This document shows, one piece after another, positions 2,631 through 35,207 of a DNA stretch of 40,318 nt. This DNA comes from a virus. Under the pieces are notes generated by a model. That model ran no database searches. It was not told the DNA's origin and worked only from the letters and a program-made list of their open reading frames with translations. Every line of letters starts with the position of its first letter. Positions within the stretch are counted from its first letter, which is position 1. The DNA lies in the IMG/VR virus record IMGVR_UViG_3300009545_000040, positions 1 through 40,318 of that record; one strand, given 5' to 3'. The translations under genes were made by a program, and so were the position numbers.

Positions 2631-2774
2631 TGCTGGCCTTCCTGGCCCGCACCTCGCGCGATGCGCGAGGCCAGCTACGCTGCGCTCCGCTGTCCGCTCC
2701 GGCATCCTGCCTGCGCAGTCGAACGTGGCTTTGCTGCGCAAAGCGACGTTCTCGCGCCGCCCTGCCTTCTCCAA

Positions 2775-2803
2775 ACAAAAAAGGGCCCCGCAAGGGGGCC
2801 CTT
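2775..2803 (-). terminator. Rho-independent terminator (native tmRNA terminator)
   Basis: Perfect 9-bp stem AAGGGCCCC/GGGGCCCTT (2781-2789 with 2795-2803) around a 5-nt loop, followed in the minus direction by a T-rich tract. It lies 8 bp beyond the CCA end of the tmRNA-like fragment, where the host gene's terminator is expected. It would also stop leftward transcription from the integrase gene. A weaker T-rich run on the plus side makes it potentially bidirectional. Confidence 0.8.
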
Positions 2804-2811
2804 ATTTTGTT

Positions 2812-2846
2812 TGGTGGAGGCGGGGGGAATCGAACCTGCGTCCGAA
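2812..2846 (-). other. Attachment junction: displaced tmRNA (ssrA) 3'-end fragment
   Basis: The minus strand reads a T-arm (GGTTCGATTCC) followed by CCCCGCCTCCACCA, that is, the acceptor 3' strand, discriminator A and encoded CCA. Only this 3' end is present; no body or 5' acceptor strand adjoins it. The integrase stop codon is immediately upstream. This is the classic result of a tyrosine recombinase using the 3' end of a tRNA or tmRNA gene: the phage carries its own copy to rebuild the RNA at the far junction and leaves the old end here. The position-70 U (CTCCACCA) is the alanine-identity feature found in tmRNA and tRNA-Ala. The first T-stem strand pairs poorly (GCAGG against CCCCC), so bases above about 2837 are probably phage-derived and the shared core is about 25 bp. 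tRNA-Ala is the alternative. Confidence 0.68.
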
Positions 2847-4010
2847 CTAGGCGCGGCGCGGCTTTGCGGCGTCATCCCCCACGGAAACCCCACAAACGGC
2901 CGCAGCTTTGTCACCGGCGGTGGGGTCGACTTCTGGTATCCAGCGCCCGTAGGTCCGCACGATCATCACCCAATCCTTATGCCCCATCTGCGACGCGACC
3001 CAGACCGGGTTCTCGCCAGCGCTGAGCAGCGTCGAGGCGTAGGTATGCCGCGTCTGGTAGGGGTAGCGGTACCGCACGCCTGCGCGCTTCAGGGCCGGCC
3101 TCCAGTGCCACTCACGGATCGGCTTGTCGCCGCCCCAGCCAACGCCTGTACGCGGATCGTGGAACACCATGCCGCCCTGCAAGAGGGTGTACTCGCGCTG
3201 CGCCTGCAGCGCTTCCCGCGAGGCCGGCAACAGTTTGACCTCCCGCCGGCCAGCCTTCGTCTTTGGCCCCTTCAGCTCGCCAGAGACCATCGCCTGGCGC
3301 ACGCGCACGAATCCACGCGACCAGTCGACATCCTGCCAGCGCAACGCGATCAGCTCTGACGTGCGCATGCCGGTCCAGAACGCGAACTGCACCAGGTTGC
3401 GAAACTGACCGGTGCACTCGGCAAGGATTGCTTCGCGCTCGGCCGGCGTGAACGGATCGATATCGTCTTCCTTCACGCCTTTGCGCTTGACTTTGATGCC
3501 GGCGATCGGATTGACCTTGATCGTGCCGGCGATCATTTCCTCGGCGAGCATCCCGCGCAGCGGCGTCAGGACGTTGTTCACGCGCTTGGCCGTGGACGTT
3601 TGCCCGGCGATCCATGTGCGAATCTGGCCGCGTGACAGGTCGCGCAGTAGCGTCGCACCGAAAGTGCGACTCAGTACGCCGACGGCGCGCTCGTAGCCTT
3701 CGAAGGTGCTCAGCTCGACGGAAGCCTTTGCGGATGCCAGCCACGCCTCGAGCTTCTTCGCAACCGTGACCATCGCTGCCGGCTCTTTGGCCAGAAGCAC
3801 TGATCGCGCTGAGCCTGGGAAGTACTCGTGATAGTCGAAGATGCCCTTGGCGATCTCGTCAAGGATCCGGCCGCGCATGTTGCGGGCATAGTTGAGGTTG
3901 CGCGGGGTAGGAGCCAGCCTAATTCGTTCCTCGCAAGCCACGCCGCGATAGCGGAACCGAATCCCTATGCTGCTTTCGGATGCGCGGAAGACGCTGCCCC
4001 GGTCGCCCAT
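2847..4010 (-). CDS. int: Tyrosine-recombinase integrase
   Basis: 387 residues. It integrates and, with a directionality factor, excises the prophage by site-specific recombination. The N-terminal ~70 residues (GIRFRYRGVACEERIRL) resemble the DUF3596 arm-binding domain, residues ~75-160 form the SAM-like core-binding domain, and the catalytic domain shows TGMRTSELIALRWQDVDW (first Arg), YPYQTRHTYASTLLSAG (R-H-x-x-Y/R box) and MGHKDWVMIVRTYGRW with the nucleophilic Tyr. Full length for the family. The last codons abut the tmRNA-like attachment fragment, which is typical. The start ATG at 4010 lies inside the preceding excisionase-like gene (46-bp overlap), so translation is probably coupled. 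It is the last gene of the long leftward operon. Confidence 0.93.
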   Translation of the reverse strand: MGDRGSVFRASESSIGIRFRYRGVACEERIRLAPTPRNLNYARNMRGRILDEIAKGIFDYHEYFPGSARSVLLAKEPAAMVTVAKKLEAWLASAKASVELSTFEGYERAVGVLSRTFGATLLRDLSRGQIRTWIAGQTSTAKRVNNVLTPLRGMLAEEMIAGTIKVNPIAGIKVKRKGVKEDDIDPFTPAEREAILAECTGQFRNLVQFAFWTGMRTSELIALRWQDVDWSRGFVRVRQAMVSGELKGPKTKAGRREVKLLPASREALQAQREYTLLQGGMVFHDPRTGVGWGGDKPIREWHWRPALKRAGVRYRYPYQTRHTYASTLLSAGENPVWVASQMGHKDWVMIVRTYGRWIPEVDPTAGDKAAAVCGVSVGDDAAKPRRA

Positions 4011-5351: not shown

Positions 5352-5566
5352 GGTTCAAATCCTGAGCAGCCGAGAGAATCGGAGCGGTAAGTCAGCCTCA
5401 CGATCCCAGCCGGATAGTCCTGGCTGAGCGATTCAAGCTGTGCGGTCGCGGTCTGGGTGCGACCGAGCGCGTCGTGGTGCACGAGCACGACAGTGACCGA
5501 CGTCACGGCCGCGGCGCTAGCAGCTATGCCACAGAGCAGGCCCGCGAGGAAGGATGCTGGTTTCAT
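5348..5566 (-). CDS. Small membrane-anchored or secreted protein
   Basis: 72 residues with a single N-terminal hydrophobic segment (FLAGLLCGIAASAAAVTSVTVVLV), which could be an uncleaved anchor or a signal peptide, followed by a ~45-residue soluble tail with one Cys. Overlaps the ATPase gene stop by 4 bp and the next gene by 4 bp. No family recognised. Confidence 0.6.
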   Translation of the reverse strand: MKPASFLAGLLCGIAASAAAVTSVTVVLVHHDALGRTQTATAQLESLSQDYPAGIVRLTYRSDSLGCSGFEP

Positions 5567-7272: not shown

Positions 7273-7499
7273 TTGCGTCCTCGTTTGTACCAATGCAGGC
7301 GGCGCACAGTCGCGCCTTCGGGAATCTCGTTCGCCGGCCAGCGCAGGCAGCGCAGATAGTTGCGGCGCCGAATACGCGGGCTCGCGCGCACCGCCGTGAC
7401 GAAGTAGGCCGTCTTGCCGCTCGACGTCAGGATGTAATCACCCTCAGCTATCGGCGCGTCGTAGAAGATGCGGCATTCGGAGTAGGGCATGCCTTTCAC
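7269..7499 (-). CDS. Small basic protein, paralogue B of the gene at 8925-9191
   Basis: 76 residues from GTG 7499, which overlaps the upstream TGA (GTGA) behind a GGAGG; ATG 7490 is the alternative. The protein shares with the gene at 8925-9191 the layout GxYI(L/I)xxx-G-x-x-xYF/L-xxxR-SP, then LRCLRWP..(E/D)IPEG(A/S)T and a final W(Y/F)KR. The C-terminus is strongly basic. The family is known to me only as uncharacterised phage proteins. The pair brackets the Gp37/Gp68 and SpoU-like genes, which suggests a local duplication or a joint role. Its stop overlaps the ATPase start. Confidence 0.65.
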   Translation of the reverse strand: MKGMPYSECRIFYDAPIAEGDYILTSSGKTAYFVTAVRASPRIRRRNYLRCLRWPANEIPEGATVRRLHWYKRGRK

Positions 7500-7951
7500 G
7501 CTGCCTCCAGCAATCCGAGCTTCGACTGCCGATCGAACATGACCAGCGATCCGGCGACGGCGACGTTGAATGATTCGGTGCGGATCGACGGGATGCTGAT
7601 GACGTGATGGCATCGCGCGAGCACGGCTGGCGGCAGGCCGTGATCCTCGGCGCCGAGCACGTAGCAGGCGCGCTCTGGATGGCTGAAGCGCTGGAGTGGC
7701 TTGCCGCCCATCTCAACCGCGACGAGCTGGCAGTTGTACGGCAGCGCCGCTAGGAACGCGTCGAACGTCTCATGCTCACGCATCGGCACATGACGGTATG
7801 CCTTGACGGTGTCGCTCGCCTGGCGCGGATAGCGCTTTCCGATCGTGAAGATGCCGGCGGCGCCGAGCTGGAACGCACTGCGCCAGAGCGTGCCGACGTT
7901 CTCGGTCGTCTTCGTGTGGCAGATTCCGATTTCGAAGAAGCCGCGGATCAC
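7496..7951 (-). CDS. SpoU/TrmH-family RNA 2'-O-methyltransferase
   Basis: 151 residues from GTG 7951 in a GTGA overlap with the upstream stop; a longer reading from 8158 would overlap the neighbour in a poor frame. Motif 1 of the SPOUT fold is seen as KTTENVGTLWRSAFQLGA (N and R conserved), motif 2 as ACYVLGAEDHGLP and motif 3 as ISIPSIRTESFNVAVAGSLVMF. These build the SAM-binding knot. In TrmL/TrmH-type enzymes the product is 2'-O-methyl ribose in tRNA or rRNA. A phage copy could act on the phage tRNA at 28262, on host tRNA or on rRNA; the target cannot be told from sequence. Motif 2 has E-D-H-G where many members have E-x-x-G, so it fits. Confidence 0.85.
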   Translation of the reverse strand: MIRGFFEIGICHTKTTENVGTLWRSAFQLGAAGIFTIGKRYPRQASDTVKAYRHVPMREHETFDAFLAALPYNCQLVAVEMGGKPLQRFSHPERACYVLGAEDHGLPPAVLARCHHVISIPSIRTESFNVAVAGSLVMFDRQSKLGLLEAA

Positions 7952-8928
7952 GCTGCCTCCGGGAATTCGTTGTGCTCGCGTCCGTCGAGAAGACGACCAG
8001 CGAGGTGCTTGCCGACTCTGCGCACCGTTGCGCCATCGGGGAAGGTGAAATGCGCGCCAGGTCCTTCGACCTCGCTGACGCTGGCGTATTCGCCCCATTG
8101 CTTGAACAGGAACGGCACGCCAGCCGCGGCGCATTGATCGCGAAGGTCGCGAACCCATTGCGGATTCATCGGCCGCGCGCTTCGGCCGCTCTCGCCACCG
8201 GCAATGATCCAGTCGATGGCATGCCGCGCATAGGTGAACTTGCCACTCGTATCGTGATCGGCCTCGCCTCGCATCTTCCGGCAGCCACAGATCGGACTCG
8301 CCTCTGAGCCGTCTCCGGCTTGGCAGCCGATCGTTCGTTCGAAGCCGTGCGCTTCCTCAGGGTGGCCGCAATGCCGGCAGGTTGGAAGCGGCAGCCAACG
8401 CGTGAAGTCGACTGGCCCGAGCGCCGGCTCGTAAGAAATGAAGTGCACCGGCGCTGGCAATTCGAGCAGCTTGTCGACGTCTCGGTCTGCTTCGTCCTGG
8501 TTGACGATCGTCTCGCCGATCCAAGCGTTTCCTGGCCAGTTCGTCCACGGCACTTGCGTCATGCGTTTCACATTGCCGATGCGCTTGGTCAGCAGCAGCC
8601 AGGTCAAATTCGGCGTCCCGCGCACAAGATCGAGGAATCGATCGCGCAAGCCTGCCGGCGCTTCGTTGTCGAATGGATCGCAGATGCTCGGGAAGACACT
8701 GAGCGGCTTGCCTATCTCGGCAGCCTTGGTGTTCCACACGATCGGCTTGCGCCAGTGCGCCTCGCTGAATTCGCGTCGCGGTGCGCCAGAGCCCCAGTTC
8801 GCACCCTTGCGCAGCCAGCGGTTCATCGACTCGGCGTAGCAGTGATCGCAGCCCGGACCGACCTTCGTGCATCCTTCCCACGGCGACCAGGTCGCGTCGC
8901 ACCATTCGATCGACGTCTTGTCGCTCAT
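7948..8928 (-). CDS. Phage Gp37/Gp68 family protein (DUF5131)
   Basis: 326 residues from ATG 8928, which overlaps the upstream TGA (ATGA); an ATG 15 codons earlier lies in another gene. The N-terminal signature is SIEWCDATWSPWEGCTKV-GPGCDHCYAE, then HWRKPIVWN, FPSICDPFDNE, TWLLLTKRIGN, WIGETIVNQ and HFISYEPALGPVD, ending DWIIAGGESG and FLFKQWGE. This order is diagnostic for the Gp37/Gp68 family, common in phages and mobile elements. The CxxC and additional Cys group (LPTCRHCGH, GCQAGD, ICGCRKM) suggest a metal or Fe-S site, and a radical-SAM-like fold has been suggested for the family; the biochemical role is not established. Sits between the two small paralogues. Confidence 0.88.
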   Translation of the reverse strand: MSDKTSIEWCDATWSPWEGCTKVGPGCDHCYAESMNRWLRKGANWGSGAPRREFSEAHWRKPIVWNTKAAEIGKPLSVFPSICDPFDNEAPAGLRDRFLDLVRGTPNLTWLLLTKRIGNVKRMTQVPWTNWPGNAWIGETIVNQDEADRDVDKLLELPAPVHFISYEPALGPVDFTRWLPLPTCRHCGHPEEAHGFERTIGCQAGDGSEASPICGCRKMRGEADHDTSGKFTYARHAIDWIIAGGESGRSARPMNPQWVRDLRDQCAAAGVPFLFKQWGEYASVSEVEGPGAHFTFPDGATVRRVGKHLAGRLLDGREHNEFPEAA

Positions 8929-27152: not shown

Positions 27153-27355
27153 AGCGCTTCCTATTCGAAGGCCGCGAAGCCACGATTGCGGAGATTCGCG
27201 CCATCGTGCCGTGCCTGACAGACTCGACCGTTCGCGCGCATCTTCGCGCGGGACGGAATACGAAGCAGGCAATGCTGACATTTGACTTCAACGCGGCACG
27301 ACGGCGAGGCGGGCAGAAGGGTCGCAAGACTGTGCGGGCGCAGGGCTGGTTCTGA
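27149..27355 (+). CDS. Small basic DNA-binding-like protein
   Basis: 68 residues from ATG 27149 (ATGA overlap). EATIAEIRAIVPCLTDSTVRAHLRAG is a plausible helix-turn-helix and the C-terminal part RRRGGQKGRKTV is highly basic. No family recognised. It lies just before the Q-like gene. Confidence 0.6.
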   Translation: MKRFLFEGREATIAEIRAIVPCLTDSTVRAHLRAGRNTKQAMLTFDFNAARRRGGQKGRKTVRAQGWF

Positions 27356-27377
27356 ATCAGGGTTGGGGAGAGTCGAT

Positions 27378-28157
27378 TTGAATCCGAGAGAACTGCTCGC
27401 GCGACTGAATGTACCGGCGATTCGCTACAGCATCGGCCGCGGTGGAATTCCCGACCTGGTGAATATCGACGTCGCCGGCGCGCTCGGAATGGCCGCATGC
27501 CGCCGGCAGGACGATGGAACCTACATTCCAGACGCCGACATGTCCTTCGCCCGCCAGGTGTTCGAAGCGTGCTGGTGGGAAGATGGCGCACCACGGCAAG
27601 ACACGGCCACCGCTCAGGAAGCGCTACGCCGCATCCTGGACGAACGCAACCGGCGCGAACGGATGGTTCTGCTCGCCCGCCTGGAGTTGAACATCGCTGA
27701 GTGTGGCCTCGCCGGCAAGCGCCGGGCTACCGAATACGACCGGAAGATCCTCGAGGATTGCACCGCGGCCGTGGATCGCGCCAAGAGCCAGACGTGGCCA
27801 TGGGAGCAGCGCACGCGCGGCGCTGATGCCGGTCCGCCGTCACCAGTCGTCTACTCGCGCATGTACCGCGCTGCGATCAGCGAAATTCGCAATCCGCGCC
27901 ATTGCCCAGAGTGCCGCGGTCGTGGCGAGGTTCAAAGCGGTCCGCTCAAGAAGATATGCCAGGAATGCGTCGGCACCGGGGTCAAGGCCGAGAAGAAGAA
28001 AGAGCGCGCCACCGCTCTCGGAGTCGATTTCGAGCAGTACCGGCGCATGTGGTTCAAGGTCTACGAATGGGCGTTTCGGATGATTCGGGACGCTGAGACG
28101 AACGGGGCGCTGGCATTCGCTCAGGCCGTTTCGACCCTTCAAGACGAAGCCGCGTGA
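27378..28157 (+). CDS. Q-like late antiterminator with zinc finger
   Basis: 259 residues from TTG 27378, preceded by GGGGAG at seven bases. The N-terminal part is helical; residues ~170-215 carry HCPECRGRG...KKICQECVGTG, a DnaJ-like four-Cys finger, then EKKKERATALGVDFEQYRRMWFKVYEW. The lambda-type Q proteins have a zinc finger of this kind, bind DNA near the late promoter and let RNA polymerase pass terminators. The position, last early gene directly before a promoter and terminator pair, is that of Q. The family match is from motif and position, not full similarity. Confidence 0.65.
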   Translation: MNPRELLARLNVPAIRYSIGRGGIPDLVNIDVAGALGMAACRRQDDGTYIPDADMSFARQVFEACWWEDGAPRQDTATAQEALRRILDERNRRERMVLLARLELNIAECGLAGKRRATEYDRKILEDCTAAVDRAKSQTWPWEQRTRGADAGPPSPVVYSRMYRAAISEIRNPRHCPECRGRGEVQSGPLKKICQECVGTGVKAEKKKERATALGVDFEQYRRMWFKVYEWAFRMIRDAETNGALAFAQAVSTLQDEAA

Positions 28158-28167
28158 AAAATCGGCT

Positions 28168-28196
28168 TTGCTTAACCACGTCCTGATGGCTATATT
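28168..28196 (+). promoter_or_regulatory. Late promoter (pR'-like)
   Basis: -35 TTGCTT (28168-28173), 17-bp spacer, -10 TATATT (28191-28196), start near 28203. A perfect palindrome GGGCAAATTGCCC follows (28205-28217) and could act as a pause site. The terminator 30 bases downstream makes a pR'-tR' arrangement as in lambda. Confidence 0.65.
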
Positions 28197-28231
28197 CGCG
28201 CGCAGGGCAAATTGCCCCCGCAGCAATCTCG

Positions 28232-28257
28232 AACCCGGCCAAGCGCCGGGTTTTTCG
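28232..28257 (+). terminator. Late terminator (tR'-like)
   Basis: 8-bp stem AACCCGGC/GCCGGGTT (28232-28239 and 28245-28252) with loop CAAGC, then a run of T (28251-28255). It stands about 30-50 nt after the late start and directly before the tRNA gene and the lysis genes. Late expression would require antitermination. Confidence 0.82.
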
Positions 28258-28261
28258 TTTC

Positions 28262-28337
28262 AGCGGCTTGGATCAGGAGGTAGATCGCCGGCCTCATAAG
28301 CCGGAAGTCGTCGGTTCGAATCCGACAGCCGCAACCA
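28262..28337 (+). tRNA. tRNA with CAU anticodon, initiator-like
   Basis: 76 nt including encoded CCA. Acceptor AGCGGCT/AGCCGCA with an A1-A72 mismatch, D stem GATC/GATC, anticodon stem CCGGC/GCCGG with loop CTCATAA, variable loop AAGTC, T stem GTCGG/CCGAC with loop TTCGAAT, discriminator A. The unpaired 1-72, A11-U24 in the D stem and CAU are initiator hallmarks; the third G of the initiator GGG/CCC anticodon stem is C31-G39 here. The 3' half is close to bacterial initiator tRNA. Alternatives: elongator Met or Ile2 (CAU with lysidine). Confidence 0.9.
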
Positions 28338-28414: not shown

Positions 28415-29023
28415 ATGGGTCAATTCGACGCACCGCAGCGCCATCCCGAGCAGTACCAGAAGAATCATCCGCACGCCGTTCTGCCGACCATCGATCAGGT
28501 CGCCGATCTGCCGCAGGATTCGGACTTCCCGGCCGGCTACGACAGCGCTCCGGACCCCGGCGATCCGGCCGCGCTGGTTCATTCGCTCGGCATCGCGAGC
28601 GTCATCGCGTTCGCCTGGTCGTTCCAGTGGTCGTCCTCCGATCAGCGCAAGAGCGCGCGCGGCTGGGCAGCCGATGCTGCCAAGAATGCCGGCGCGGGCG
28701 TGCAGTGGGCGGCAACGCTGCGCGATTTCGGAGGTCAGTTGAATGACGTCCAGAAGGCGAGCCTGAACTACGCCTGCAACTCTGCGAACGACCTGCAGAC
28801 GGGTGGCAACAAGACGTTCGTTCCCCCGGCCTATTCGACGGCGAGCGGCAGCGCCGAAGCTGTCGATGGCGTCGCCTTCCCGGCGAATTTCGCCGAAGGC
28901 AGCGGCGATAGCGGCCAGACCACGTTCGAACTCGGTCCGAAGGATGCCAAGGCGCTGGCCTTCGCGCAGCTGATCAGTTGCGTGCAGTCTGGCGCCTATC
29001 TGCTCGGCGCCAAGCCGGGCTGA
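28415..29023 (+). CDS. First protein gene of the late operon, unknown
   Basis: 202 residues from ATG 28415, with an excellent AAGGAG at 28401-28406. The N-terminal part is Pro/Asp-rich (QYQKNHPHAVLPTIDQ, DSDFPAGYDSAPDPGDP); then LVHSLGIASVIAFAWSFQW, a possible short hydrophobic helix, and an Ala/Asn-rich C-terminal part. No family recognised. The strong ribosome site suggests high expression. It precedes the lysis genes, so a role in lysis control or a minor virion protein are both open. Confidence 0.65.
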   Translation: MGQFDAPQRHPEQYQKNHPHAVLPTIDQVADLPQDSDFPAGYDSAPDPGDPAALVHSLGIASVIAFAWSFQWSSSDQRKSARGWAADAAKNAGAGVQWAATLRDFGGQLNDVQKASLNYACNSANDLQTGGNKTFVPPAYSTASGSAEAVDGVAFPANFAEGSGDSGQTTFELGPKDAKALAFAQLISCVQSGAYLLGAKPG

Positions 29024-29908: not shown

Positions 29909-30025
29909 ATGCTCTACTTGATCTGCATCGCTGCAGGCTGGGCGCTTGCTCACGTCCCGCAGGCACGCTGGCAGGCGCTTGAAACGTGGGCGACTGCACA
30001 GATCGCCAAGGTTCGCGGCAAGTGA
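29909..30025 (+). CDS. Very small protein overlapping the endolysin start
   Basis: 38 residues, ATG 29909 behind AAGGGGAA. MLYLICIAAGWALAHV is hydrophobic, the rest amphipathic (QALETWATAQIAKVRGK). Its last bases overlap the endolysin GTG (4 bp). Coupled translation with the endolysin is likely. Confidence 0.5.
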   Translation: MLYLICIAAGWALAHVPQARWQALETWATAQIAKVRGK

Positions 30026-30717
30026 AGCTGTCACCCGCTGGCGAACGCGCGCTCAAGGGCCGCGAAGGTCCGAACGGCCAGCCAGCGCTCGTCGGTTACG
30101 CCGATGACAACGGCACGCCGACGTTCGGCTATGGAACTACCGATGGCGCCGTGATCGGCAAGACGTATACCGAGGAAGAGTGCGACGACGCGTTCGACAA
30201 AGCCTCGGTCTGGGTCGGCGATTGCATCGACAAGAACGTCAAGGTTTCGCTCACGCAAGGTCAGTACGACGCGTTGTTTTCGTTCGTCTACAACATCGGT
30301 TCCGGCGCGTTCGAGAAGTCGACGCTGCTCAAGAAGTTGAACAGCGGCGATTACGCCTCGGTCCCTGCCGAGATGCTGAAATGGACGATCAGCGGTGGTG
30401 TGAAAGACCCTGGTCTGGTCAATCGCCGCAACTCAGAAGGTGGTCAGTGGGTACAAGGCGCCTACGTGCGCGGCTCGAAGATCGATATCGAACCGCCGCC
30501 TAGCATCTGGAAGACTGCGCACATGAAGGCCAAAGCCGCCGGCAGCGCAATTGCCACGAGTGGCGTTACCGCGACCGCGCTCACGAATGGCGCCGAAAAG
30601 GTCAACCAGCTCGCGACGACAGTGCACTTCCTCGCGCCATACCTGACCGGCATCGGGGTCGTTCTGACCGTCGCCGGAATTCTCTGGGGCGTTTTCAAGA
30701 AAGACGGCGCGCCCTGA
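30022..30717 (+). CDS. Endolysin, GH24 lysozyme with C-terminal membrane segment
   Basis: 231 residues from GTG 30022 (GTGA overlap). LKGREGPNGQ, VGYADDNGTPTFGYGTTDG give the catalytic Glu (residue 14), Asp (24-25) and Thr of T4-type/P21-type lysozymes; LTQGQYDALFSFVYNIGSGAF, LLKKLNSGDY and GLVNRRNSEGG fit the family helices. It cleaves peptidoglycan β-1,4-linkages. The core is complete at ~155 residues; the rest is a linker and a membrane helix (LTGIGVVLTVAGILWGVF) at the very C-terminus. There is no N-terminal signal or SAR segment. Tail anchoring to the membrane is unusual for this family and may mean a built-in holin-like part. Confidence 0.9.
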   Translation: MKLSPAGERALKGREGPNGQPALVGYADDNGTPTFGYGTTDGAVIGKTYTEEECDDAFDKASVWVGDCIDKNVKVSLTQGQYDALFSFVYNIGSGAFEKSTLLKKLNSGDYASVPAEMLKWTISGGVKDPGLVNRRNSEGGQWVQGAYVRGSKIDIEPPPSIWKTAHMKAKAAGSAIATSGVTATALTNGAEKVNQLATTVHFLAPYLTGIGVVLTVAGILWGVFKKDGAP

Positions 30718-32625: not shown

Positions 32626-33126
32626 GTGGGTGAAGTGCTGGAGCAGAACGACCGGTACGTCCGTCTGAGCATCGCCCGGCTGGCCGAAGAGTTCGGCATG
32701 GCCCGGGAAACGGTCTCGAAACGGCTGGCTCAGGCAAGCGTTCCGAGCGACGGGTTGCGCAACGGGTATCCGGTCTATCGGCTTCGCGATGCGTGCCCGG
32801 CGCTGATGAGCGGGGCTGGCTTCGACGAGCAGGGAATGCGCGACCCGAAGACGATGCCGCCTGACCAGCGCAACTACTGGTATCAGTCCGAGAGCAAGCG
32901 CATCGATGTCGAGACGCGGGCAGGGCTGCTCATCCCAGCCTCGGAGCACGAAGCGGACCTCGCGGTGATGGTCAAGGACCTGGCGCAGTTCCTGGAAACG
33001 CTGCCCGACCAACTCGAGCGCGATGTGGCGCTGACGCCCGAGCAGGTTCAGGCGCTGCACGACGGCATCGATCGCCGGCGGCAAGAGCTTTACGACCGGA
33101 TCGTAGCGACCGCCGCGGCGGCCTGA
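32626..33126 (+). CDS. Terminase small subunit (DUF1441-like)
   Basis: 166 residues from GTG 32626. RLSIARLAEEFGMARETVSKRLAQA is a helix-turn-helix that binds the packaging site, and the rest is YWYQSESKRIDVETRAGLLIPASEHEADLAVMVKDLAQFLETLP with a helical oligomerisation part. The R-x-x-x-E-T-V-S-K-R-L pattern and place directly before TerL fit the DUF1441/Nu1-like small terminases. It recognises the DNA end (cos or pac) and hands it to the large subunit. Confidence 0.8.
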   Translation: MGEVLEQNDRYVRLSIARLAEEFGMARETVSKRLAQASVPSDGLRNGYPVYRLRDACPALMSGAGFDEQGMRDPKTMPPDQRNYWYQSESKRIDVETRAGLLIPASEHEADLAVMVKDLAQFLETLPDQLERDVALTPEQVQALHDGIDRRRQELYDRIVATAAAA

Positions 33127-35207
33127 TGTACGCGAGCGCTGCGCAGATCCGGATCGGCGTAGCCGAGACAATCCGGCCAGCGCGCCGTGTGTCGGTCAGC
33201 CAGTCGGTCGGCACGAACCTGCGGATCGTCAATCCGTCAGGGGCGTCGCAGAACTGGAGCGTCGACGTCTCGCCGTACATGCGCGAGCCGATGGATCTGG
33301 CGCGCAGTCGACTGTACGAAGCGATCATCTTTGCTGGTCCGGCGCGGTCCGGAAAGACCATTGCGCTGGTAGATGGCGTGGTAGCGTATTCGATCGTGGA
33401 CGATCCGGCGGACACGCTGATCATCCAGACGAACGAATCGCAGGCGCAGGACTACAGCAAGACGCGCATTGGTCGCGCCATCACGGGCAGCCCGGAGCTC
33501 GCGAAGCGTTTGAGTCCGCGCGCTCATGACGACAACGTCTACCTGAAGTTCTTCCGAAGCGGCATGGCTCTGCGCTTCGGCTGGCCGACGCTTGCGCAGG
33601 TCAGCGGCAAGGATCTGCGCCGCGTGTTGCTGACGGACGTCGATAACATCACCGGCGACCTGTCGATCGACGAGTTGTTTGGTCTGGCGCTCAAGCGCAT
33701 TCAGACCTACATGTCGTCAGGGAAGTGCATCGCGGAGTCGAGCCCGGCACGCGACTACACGGACGCCAAGTGGCGGCCGCGGTCGCCGCACGAGGCGCCG
33801 CCGGCGGACGGAATCTTGTCGCTGTACAACCGTGGCGACCGCCGGCGCTGGTACTGGCTCTGTCCGGAGTGCAAGGAACCGTTCCAGGCGGCGCCAGGGA
33901 TCGATGGGTTCGGACTGCCGGCATTTGAGGAATTGCTCGAGCGCGTCGTCGTCGATGACGTGCTGGCTATATCAGAGCGGCATTCGCTCTTGCACTGCAC
34001 CTGCTGCGGTGTCGGCTTGGAGCATCGCTGGAAACGCTCGATGAATCTCAGCGGTCGCTGGGTTGGCGAGGGTCAGCGGATGTGGCCAGACGGCACGGTC
34101 ACCGGTGAGCTTGTGCGATCGCGTACGGCGAGCTTCTGGCTCGGTGGCGTCGCTGCGGCATACCAATCATGGACCTCGCTGGTCGAGCGCTACCTGCAGG
34201 CGGTGAAGCAGTACGCGCTGACCGGCGAGTCGAAGCCCCTGAAATCGACTACGAACGTTGACCAGGCGATGCCGTTCCTGCCGATCTCGGCTCGAAACGA
34301 GCAGACCGGCAATGATCTGCAGGAGCGCGCCGAGGATTGGCCTCAGGGCGAGGTTCCCGCCGGCGTGCGCTTCCTCACTGCGCAGATCGACATTCAGGCC
34401 GGCAAGAACGCGCGGTTTGTGATTCAGGTTATGGGCTACGGAGTCGGCCTCGAGAAGTGGGTCATCGATCGCTATGCGCTGAAGAGTTCCGAGCGAGACA
34501 ACGGACAAGGCGGCGTCTTCCCGATCGACCCGGCCGGATTCGTCGAAGATTGGGAGCGTCTGATCGAAAAGGCTATCACGCGGCGATATCCGCTTGCTGA
34601 TGGCTCAGGCCGTTCGATGCCGGTGCGCCTCACGGTCTGCGACTCCGGCGGCGAGGAGGGGGTAACACAGCGCGCGTACGAGTTCTTTCGCGTGCTGCGT
34701 ACGAAAGGCCTGCAGTCCAAGTTCCGCCTGGTCAAGGGCACCGACCGGGATAGCGCGGCGCGAGTGCAGGAGACGTTCCCTGACGCGCGCAAGCGCAAGG
34801 ATCGCCAGTCCGGCGCGATCGGCGACGTGCCGGTACTGCTGCTGAGCGCAACGGTCCTGAAAGATGCGGTGATGGCAGACGTCAAGCGATCGACGGCCGG
34901 CCCGGGCTATTACCATTTTCCGAAGTGGCTGCCGACATCATTCTTCGATGAACTGACGGCCGAGACACGCGGCGCGCGACGCTGGGAAAACCCGCACAAG
35001 CGGAAGAACGAGACGTTCGACCTTTGCTATTACGGTCACGCTGCGGCCATTGCGCTCGGCGCCGATCGGTTTGATTGGAAATCCCCGCCTTCGTGGGCGG
35101 CCGAGTGGGATGCTAACCCGGACGTGTTCGTCAACGGGACCGAGAAACCGGCCGCGCCAGTAGTGCGCCCCTTGCGCGTCGCGCGCAGTTCTTATCTGGA
35201 ACGGTGA
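33126..35207 (+). CDS. Terminase large subunit (lambda gpA family)
   Basis: 693 residues from ATG 33126, overlapping the stop of the small subunit. ATPase: Walker A FAGPARSGKT near residue 72-81, Walker B RRVLLTDVDN (with TDVD in place of the usual hydrophobic-DE), then SGKCIAESSPARDYTD. A zinc-binding insert shows WYWLCPECKEPF and LLHCTCCGVGL. The nuclease part has LTAQIDIQAGKNARFVIQ, VCDSGGEEGVTQRAYEF and NETFDLCYYGHAA (Asp residues of the RNase H-like site). Length fits gpA. It cuts concatemers and drives DNA into the prohead. Confidence 0.93.
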   Translation: MYASAAQIRIGVAETIRPARRVSVSQSVGTNLRIVNPSGASQNWSVDVSPYMREPMDLARSRLYEAIIFAGPARSGKTIALVDGVVAYSIVDDPADTLIIQTNESQAQDYSKTRIGRAITGSPELAKRLSPRAHDDNVYLKFFRSGMALRFGWPTLAQVSGKDLRRVLLTDVDNITGDLSIDELFGLALKRIQTYMSSGKCIAESSPARDYTDAKWRPRSPHEAPPADGILSLYNRGDRRRWYWLCPECKEPFQAAPGIDGFGLPAFEELLERVVVDDVLAISERHSLLHCTCCGVGLEHRWKRSMNLSGRWVGEGQRMWPDGTVTGELVRSRTASFWLGGVAAAYQSWTSLVERYLQAVKQYALTGESKPLKSTTNVDQAMPFLPISARNEQTGNDLQERAEDWPQGEVPAGVRFLTAQIDIQAGKNARFVIQVMGYGVGLEKWVIDRYALKSSERDNGQGGVFPIDPAGFVEDWERLIEKAITRRYPLADGSGRSMPVRLTVCDSGGEEGVTQRAYEFFRVLRTKGLQSKFRLVKGTDRDSAARVQETFPDARKRKDRQSGAIGDVPVLLLSATVLKDAVMADVKRSTAGPGYYHFPKWLPTSFFDELTAETRGARRWENPHKRKNETFDLCYYGHAAAIALGADRFDWKSPPSWAAEWDANPDVFVNGTEKPAAPVVRPLRVARSSYLER

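Follow-up and report, generated by a model that had tools for sequence, protein, structure and literature searches.

The window, by which we mean the whole stretch of 40,318 nucleotides that was analysed (IMG/VR record IMGVR_UViG_3300009545_000040), belongs to a temperate siphovirus. Its genes follow the order integrase, Erf-like protein, DnaB, helicase-methylase, Q-like antiterminator, tRNA, endolysin, terminase, portal, protease and major head protein. ARAGORN found a sole tRNA in the window, at 28262-28337 on the plus strand, with the anticodon CAT. It starts 104 nt past the end of the gene for the Q-like antiterminator (27282-28157, +), whose C-terminal part matches phrog_127 (E 4e-9). A search of viral contigs for relatives of the Q-like protein returned the same virus only, and local tblastn gave distant homologues. 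Between this gene and the tRNA lies a weak promoter candidate, pR'-like by position (28168-28196, +; TTGCTT with 3/6 and TATATT with 5/6 consensus bases, 17 nt apart), which was read by eye below the promoter-scan threshold and is thus tentative. It is followed by a tR'-like intrinsic terminator with a 9-pair stem and a T-rich tail directly before the tRNA (28231-28258, +), and the strong hairpin within it (28231-28253) ends 8 nt upstream of the tRNA. The first late gene past the tRNA (28415-29023, +) has AAGGAG ahead of its ATG and no family match. The late operon continues with the endolysin (29986-30717, +) and the small and large terminase subunits (32626-35207, +). The preliminary description had placed the tRNA just past the late terminator, at the start of late transcription, and the order of Q-like gene, promoter candidate, terminator and tRNA bears this out on both counts.

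The arrangement before the late operon appears to be the Q-pR'-tR' layout of lambda; a Q-like gene and a terminator are found before the tRNA, and the promoter is weak and was picked by eye. Given this layout, late transcription should yield the tRNA first, and none of it should appear unless the antiterminator is active. In lambdoid Shiga-toxin phages, the tRNA genes ileZ-argN-argO are located behind Q. The window phage shares with them a tRNA just past Q and the (candidate) late promoter, but it is unrelated to them, carries an initiator-type tRNA instead of Ile and Arg tRNAs, and no toxin gene was seen in it.

The integrase is a tyrosine integrase (2847-4010, -). A probable attP core, composed of 33 bp of the 3' end of ssrA (tmRNA), adjoins its gene at 2812-2844 (-), which indicates that the phage does not integrate at an initiator tRNA gene. 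A host among the Gammaproteobacteria is compatible with the nearest terminase matches and with the ssrA-like att core. Beside this core, a sub-threshold match (28.3 bits) to the Xanthomonas sRNA asX2 was found at 2719-2802 (+), which may be only a terminator hairpin. A SpoU-type RNA 2'-O-methyltransferase, already recognized in the preliminary description, was identified by Pfam (PF00588, E 5e-24) in the ORF at 7496-8158 (-). It lies 20 kb from the tRNA, in the early region on the opposite strand, and nothing in the analysis connects either this enzyme or the seemingly leaderless regulator genes of the preliminary description with the tRNA.

Structure and class of the tRNA

ARAGORN, Rfam, direct reading and a class profile agree on an initiator-type tRNA(CAU) at 28262-28337 (+). 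It is a sound tRNA: it matches Rfam RF00005 with 62.5 bits (E 2.3e-11), and the non-standard pair is 1-72. Read from the sequence, the acceptor stem is AGCGGCT/AGCCGCA, with A1·A72 unpaired, followed by G2-C71, C3-G70, G4-C69, G5-C68, C6-G67 and U7-A66. The D stem GAUC/GAUC gives A11-U24 and U12-A23. The anticodon stem CCGGC/GCCGG gives C27-G43, C28-G42, G29-C41, G30-C40 and C31-G39, and the loop CUCAUAA, A73 and an encoded CCA complete the molecule. All features that had been listed for this tRNA are therefore present, including A·A at 1-72, A11-U24 and A73-CCA. The claim that only the third pair of the GGG/CCC anticodon stem is altered is also correct, 29-41 and 30-40 both being G-C. The 3' half had been called close to bacterial initiator tRNA, and it shows 83% identity over 59 nt to host initiators. 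The loop had been named as a further hallmark of initiators; it is present, but elongator tRNA-Met and tRNA-Ile2 have the same loop, so that it is not diagnostic.

Pseudomonadota genomes supplied 22 distinct host initiators, 13 elongator Met and 16 Ile2 sequences, from which class profiles by position were built. Against these, the window tRNA scored 55.3 bits for the initiator class, 30.0 for elongator Met and 28.0 for Ile2, the separation of the latter two being approximate because those sets were split by acceptor 5' ends. The initiator class is thus favoured in a comparison of the kind that the preliminary description had called for. Host initiators scored 106-127 bits in a leave-one-out test, far above the window tRNA. 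Because its score is so much lower, the window tRNA is best described as an initiator by class, but a diverged one.

With bacterial initiator tRNAfMet it shares CAU, A73-CCA, the unpaired 1·72, G2-C71, C3-G70, G4-C69, A11-U24, G29-C41 and G30-C40. It differs in having A1 for C1 or U1, C31-G39 for G31-C39, and U12-A23; the lower acceptor stem also differs, and the 83% identity covers the 3' part only. The determinants of formylation are a 1x72 mismatch, G2:C71, C3:G70 and A11:U24 (PMC7949028), all of which the window tRNA possesses. A bacterial initiator lacks a Watson-Crick pair at 1:72, as is seen here with A1·A72, and has three G:C pairs with G on the 5' side at 29:41, 30:40 and 31:39, the third of which is C31-G39 here. 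Some genuine host initiators also break this 3GC rule, at 29:41 (A-U). Because the third pair departs from the rule, though genuine host initiators depart from it too, we prefer the label initiator-type to that of a canonical member. In some host initiators (L273, L315 and L317-L319), including that of the Lysobacteraceae MAG, U1·U72 replaces C1·A72.

Close relatives

The same tRNA lineage was found on two other viral contigs, L062 and L461. In both, the tRNA follows at once on the end of a terminator, and in L461 a Q homologue lies about 100 nt upstream of the tRNA. Both tRNAs keep the acceptor stem, the D stem, A11-U24 and G30-C40, but they have an A1-U72 pair and G31-C39 where the window tRNA has A1·A72 and C31-G39. 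The tRNA of L461 (at about 1669-1743) has the loop CCCATAA, with C33 in place of the near-universal U33, together with the full G29-G30-G31 stem and A1-U72.

The Lysobacteraceae prophage L261 has a terminase 61% identical to that of the window and also a Q homologue. Just past this homologue, in the same slot as the initiator tRNA of the window, it carries a tRNA-Gly(TCC) (5399-5472). The slot therefore accepts different tRNAs and is not specific to initiation.

Initiator-type tRNAs in other phages

Initiator-type 3' halves were sought by a pattern scan of 2.9 million viral contigs; the counts are among the matches listed, and the scan patterns fixed the CUCAUAA loop, so only tRNAs with that loop were sampled. 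This broad scan matched both complete initiator-type tRNAs, with a large variety of acceptor stems, and 3' halves that continue into unrelated sequence. Viral contigs with only the 3' half of a host tRNAfMet (e.g. L140, L153 and L181) carry apparent att sites and were left out of the initiator-type counts; phages seem often to integrate at the host initiator tRNA gene. Host-type sequences were set apart before counting, and host contamination was accordingly rejected as a source of the phage counts.

Among the matches listed, which were not selected for position 39, the pair 31:39 was changed in 11 of 32 complete, non-host-like phage initiators with A11:U24 and in none of the 22 distinct host initiators (Fisher p 0.0016, which is approximate since the sequences are related by descent). 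A targeted pattern with a changed position 39 matched at least 120 viral contigs versus 1 of 398 Pseudomonadota genomes. This lone match (L333) is located near genes matching uncharacterised phage families, and the same genome has an ordinary initiator. The change to C31-G39 had been taken as incidental, but many phage tRNAs of the initiator type show a change at this pair and hosts hardly ever do, the host comparison covering Pseudomonadota only and the viral hosts being mixed.

From the targeted-scan matches listed and earlier loci, 65 distinct tRNAs with A11:U24 were selected for a changed position 39, and one of them (L354) is the bacterial-genome match just described. G30:C40 was kept in all of these selected tRNAs, although the targeted pattern left 30:40 free. 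With position 1 free and position 72 limited to A or T, 1:72 was unpaired in 42 of them, and the other 23 had a weak pair there, A-U or U-A. Their pair 31:39 was C:G (41), U:G (11), G:U (7), A:U (3), U:A (2) or U:U (1); 30:40 was fixed while 29:41 and 31:39 varied. The class profiles classified as initiators all 64 that have no ambiguous bases. Clustering of these tRNAs gave 32 groups at 85% identity and 13 at 80%, and 31 different acceptor arms occur among them. Judging from these sequences, initiator-type tRNAs occur on many unrelated phage contigs. Our literature search found no paper in which the initiator tRNAs of phages are treated as a class.

A terminase was detectable at 13 initiator-bearing phage loci and was on the same strand as the tRNA in every case, 0.6-4.5 kb downstream of it at 12 loci and just upstream at one. 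The order is antiterminator, tRNA, terminase and portal in L358, and primase, tRNA, small and large terminase and portal in L183. An order similar to that of the window was found in the annotated Rhizobium phage RHph_TM3_3_3 (L463; antiterminator, HTH, tRNA-Met, DUF2280) and in the Devosia phage-plasmid L476 (tRNA, HNH, TerL). In larger phages, initiator-type tRNAs are found within tRNA arrays. A terminator precedes 6 of 81 phage initiator tRNAs versus 0.9% of random windows, a modest enrichment to which the window virus and its relative L062 contribute two of the six. In addition, there are phage tRNA(CAU) hybrids (L149, L166, L356, L357 and others), which combine a 1·72 mismatch, an elongator-type D stem and the anticodon arm ACTCATAAT.

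Discussion

We consider it likely that the window tRNA is a late initiator owned by the phage and controlled by Q, which is charged, receives its formyl group and then supplements the host pool or takes its place. The Q-like protein would let RNA polymerase pass the terminator, so that the tRNA would be the first item on the late transcript, from which it would then be cut out. Host MetRS would charge it with Met. Host Fmt would formylate it, since 1 and 72 are unpaired and G2-C71, C3-G70, G4-C69 and A11-U24 are kept. The retained G30-C40 pair would place it in the P site. Its most likely job would be to sustain or replace the initiator pool during the high-rate translation of lysis and capsid proteins, or upon loss of host tRNA. 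What the analysis shows directly is the features of the sequence, its class score, the order of the genes, the conservation in two relatives and the recurrence in other phages; from these we infer that a Q-controlled promoter drives transcription, that the tRNA is processed, formylated and used in initiation, and that the phage benefits. The preliminary description proposed that an initiator at the start of late transcription could boost or redirect initiation. Its class and late position are supported, while the boost or redirection itself is conjectural.

Several points speak against a late initiator. The third of the conserved G-C pairs is lost through C31-G39, and the score of 55.3 is far below the 106-127 of hosts. 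The relatives L062 and L461 pair A-U at 1-72, and L461 has C33. The corresponding slot of L261 holds a tRNA-Gly(TCC), and the promoter candidate is weak by consensus. Initiation in E. coli becomes weaker when the 3GC set is replaced (PMC7949028). G30, which is kept in the window tRNA, is the most important base of this set, and ribosomal A-minor contacts are seen at 29-41 and 30-40 in structures (PMC7005279). This fits a set of phage tRNAs that keeps G30-C40 and releases 31:39.

Two explanations have been considered for the changed pair, both of which are compatible with the late-initiator role because they explain the pair and not the identity of the tRNA. The first is that 31:39 is near-neutral, the ribosome reading 29:41 and 30:40, and that the phage gains only an extra dose of initiator. 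The unconventional initiators of mycoplasmas, reportedly the subject of work by Ayyub in 2018, are said to depart from G31-C39 and to keep G30-C40. They share these traits with the phage tRNAs, but the mycoplasma tRNA is the cell's own initiator and G-U is involved, whereas C-G dominates in the phages. Both the A-minor contacts at 29-41 and 30-40 (PMC7005279) and the phage tRNAs, in which 30:40 is fixed while its neighbours 29:41 and 31:39 vary, agree with a relaxed or retuned initiator. G31-C39 is, however, almost invariant in Pseudomonadota hosts, so that the pair is probably not neutral there. We regard this explanation as quite possible, though somewhat short of an even chance.

The second explanation, which we hold only tentatively, is that the phage initiator is a nuclease-resistant spare. 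It would replace host tRNAfMet that defence nucleases cut at the end of the anticodon loop, the changed 31:39 spoiling the target while G30:C40 is kept. VapC cuts tRNAfMet between A38 and C39 (PMC4105405), and the changed pair includes residue 39; the VapC reading of the pair is putative. The recurrence of 31:39 changes among the 65 phage tRNAs selected for position 39, their frequency among the unselected matches listed (11 of 32 versus 0 of 22 in hosts, Fisher p 0.0016) and the single match of the targeted pattern among 398 Pseudomonadota genomes are in line with nuclease escape, but relaxed constraint predicts the same pattern, the hosts were sampled in Pseudomonadota only, and the close relatives L062 and L461 keep G31-C39. 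Relaxed constraint is thus as fair a reading of the change as nuclease escape. Elsewhere, phage tRNAs overcome tRNA-cutting defences (PMC11555353, PMC10264068). The window tRNA resembles those tRNAs in being a phage-borne essential isotype altered beside a known nuclease cut site, but it is a single initiator-class tRNA of a small temperate phage. Since tRNA-fMet is generally avoided by phages of VapC-LT2 hosts (PMC10264068), phage initiators changed at the 38/39 site would be an informative test set. It is conceivable, but rather doubtful, that there is a widespread class of temperate-phage initiators at the head of late operons, with 31:39 altered so as to give a preference for phage start sites or to survive nucleases that cut at 38/39.

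It is unlikely that the window tRNA mainly decodes internal AUG as an elongator tRNA-Met. The anticodon and loop are the same, the relatives with A1-U72 could bind EF-Tu better, and a tRNAfMet that is not formylated can elongate (PMC7949028). However, elongator Met has a paired acceptor end (G1-C72) and C11-G24, where the window tRNA has the A1·A72 mismatch and A11-U24, and an elongator identity was rejected by the class scores, being 25 bits below that of the initiator.

TRNA-dependent lysogeny, in which a phage disrupts a host tRNA gene and supplies its own copy (PMC10865867), is very improbable here. The window phage is likewise temperate, with an integrase and one carried tRNA, and many other viral contigs have att-like 3' halves of host tRNAfMet. 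In that system attB lies within the host's own gene for a tRNA of that isotype, whereas the att core of the window phage is the ssrA 3' end beside the integrase gene, not a tRNA-Met gene, and its 33 bp are enough to restore ssrA. The tRNA is in the late region behind a terminator, and should therefore be largely silent in the lysogen. Because it is also complete, and 24 kb separate it from both the integrase and the att core, both tRNA-dependent lysogeny and an origin as an integration remnant were rejected.

A lysidine-type tRNA-Ile2 decoding AUA can scarcely be correct, for although the CAU anticodon is present, the Ile2 set mostly has G1-C72, C4-G69, C5-G68 and C11-G24 where the window tRNA has A1·A72, G4-C69, G5-C68 and A11-U24, and its score of 28.0 bits versus 55.3 led us to reject this identity.

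Phage tRNAs are usually discussed as supplements for elongation. A tRNA of the initiator type at the entry to late transcription points to control or protection of initiation by the phage. Such tRNAs recur in unrelated phages, and many are labelled simply tRNA-Met in the records. By changing 31:39 again and again while G30-C40 stays invariant, phages have run a natural experiment that bears on how much of the universal 3GC signature is required. Phage initiators also make it possible to test directly if the nucleases attacking initiator tRNA serve to defend against phages. If phages do carry a class of initiators altered at 31:39 as outlined above, translation initiation itself would be a front in the conflict between phage and host.
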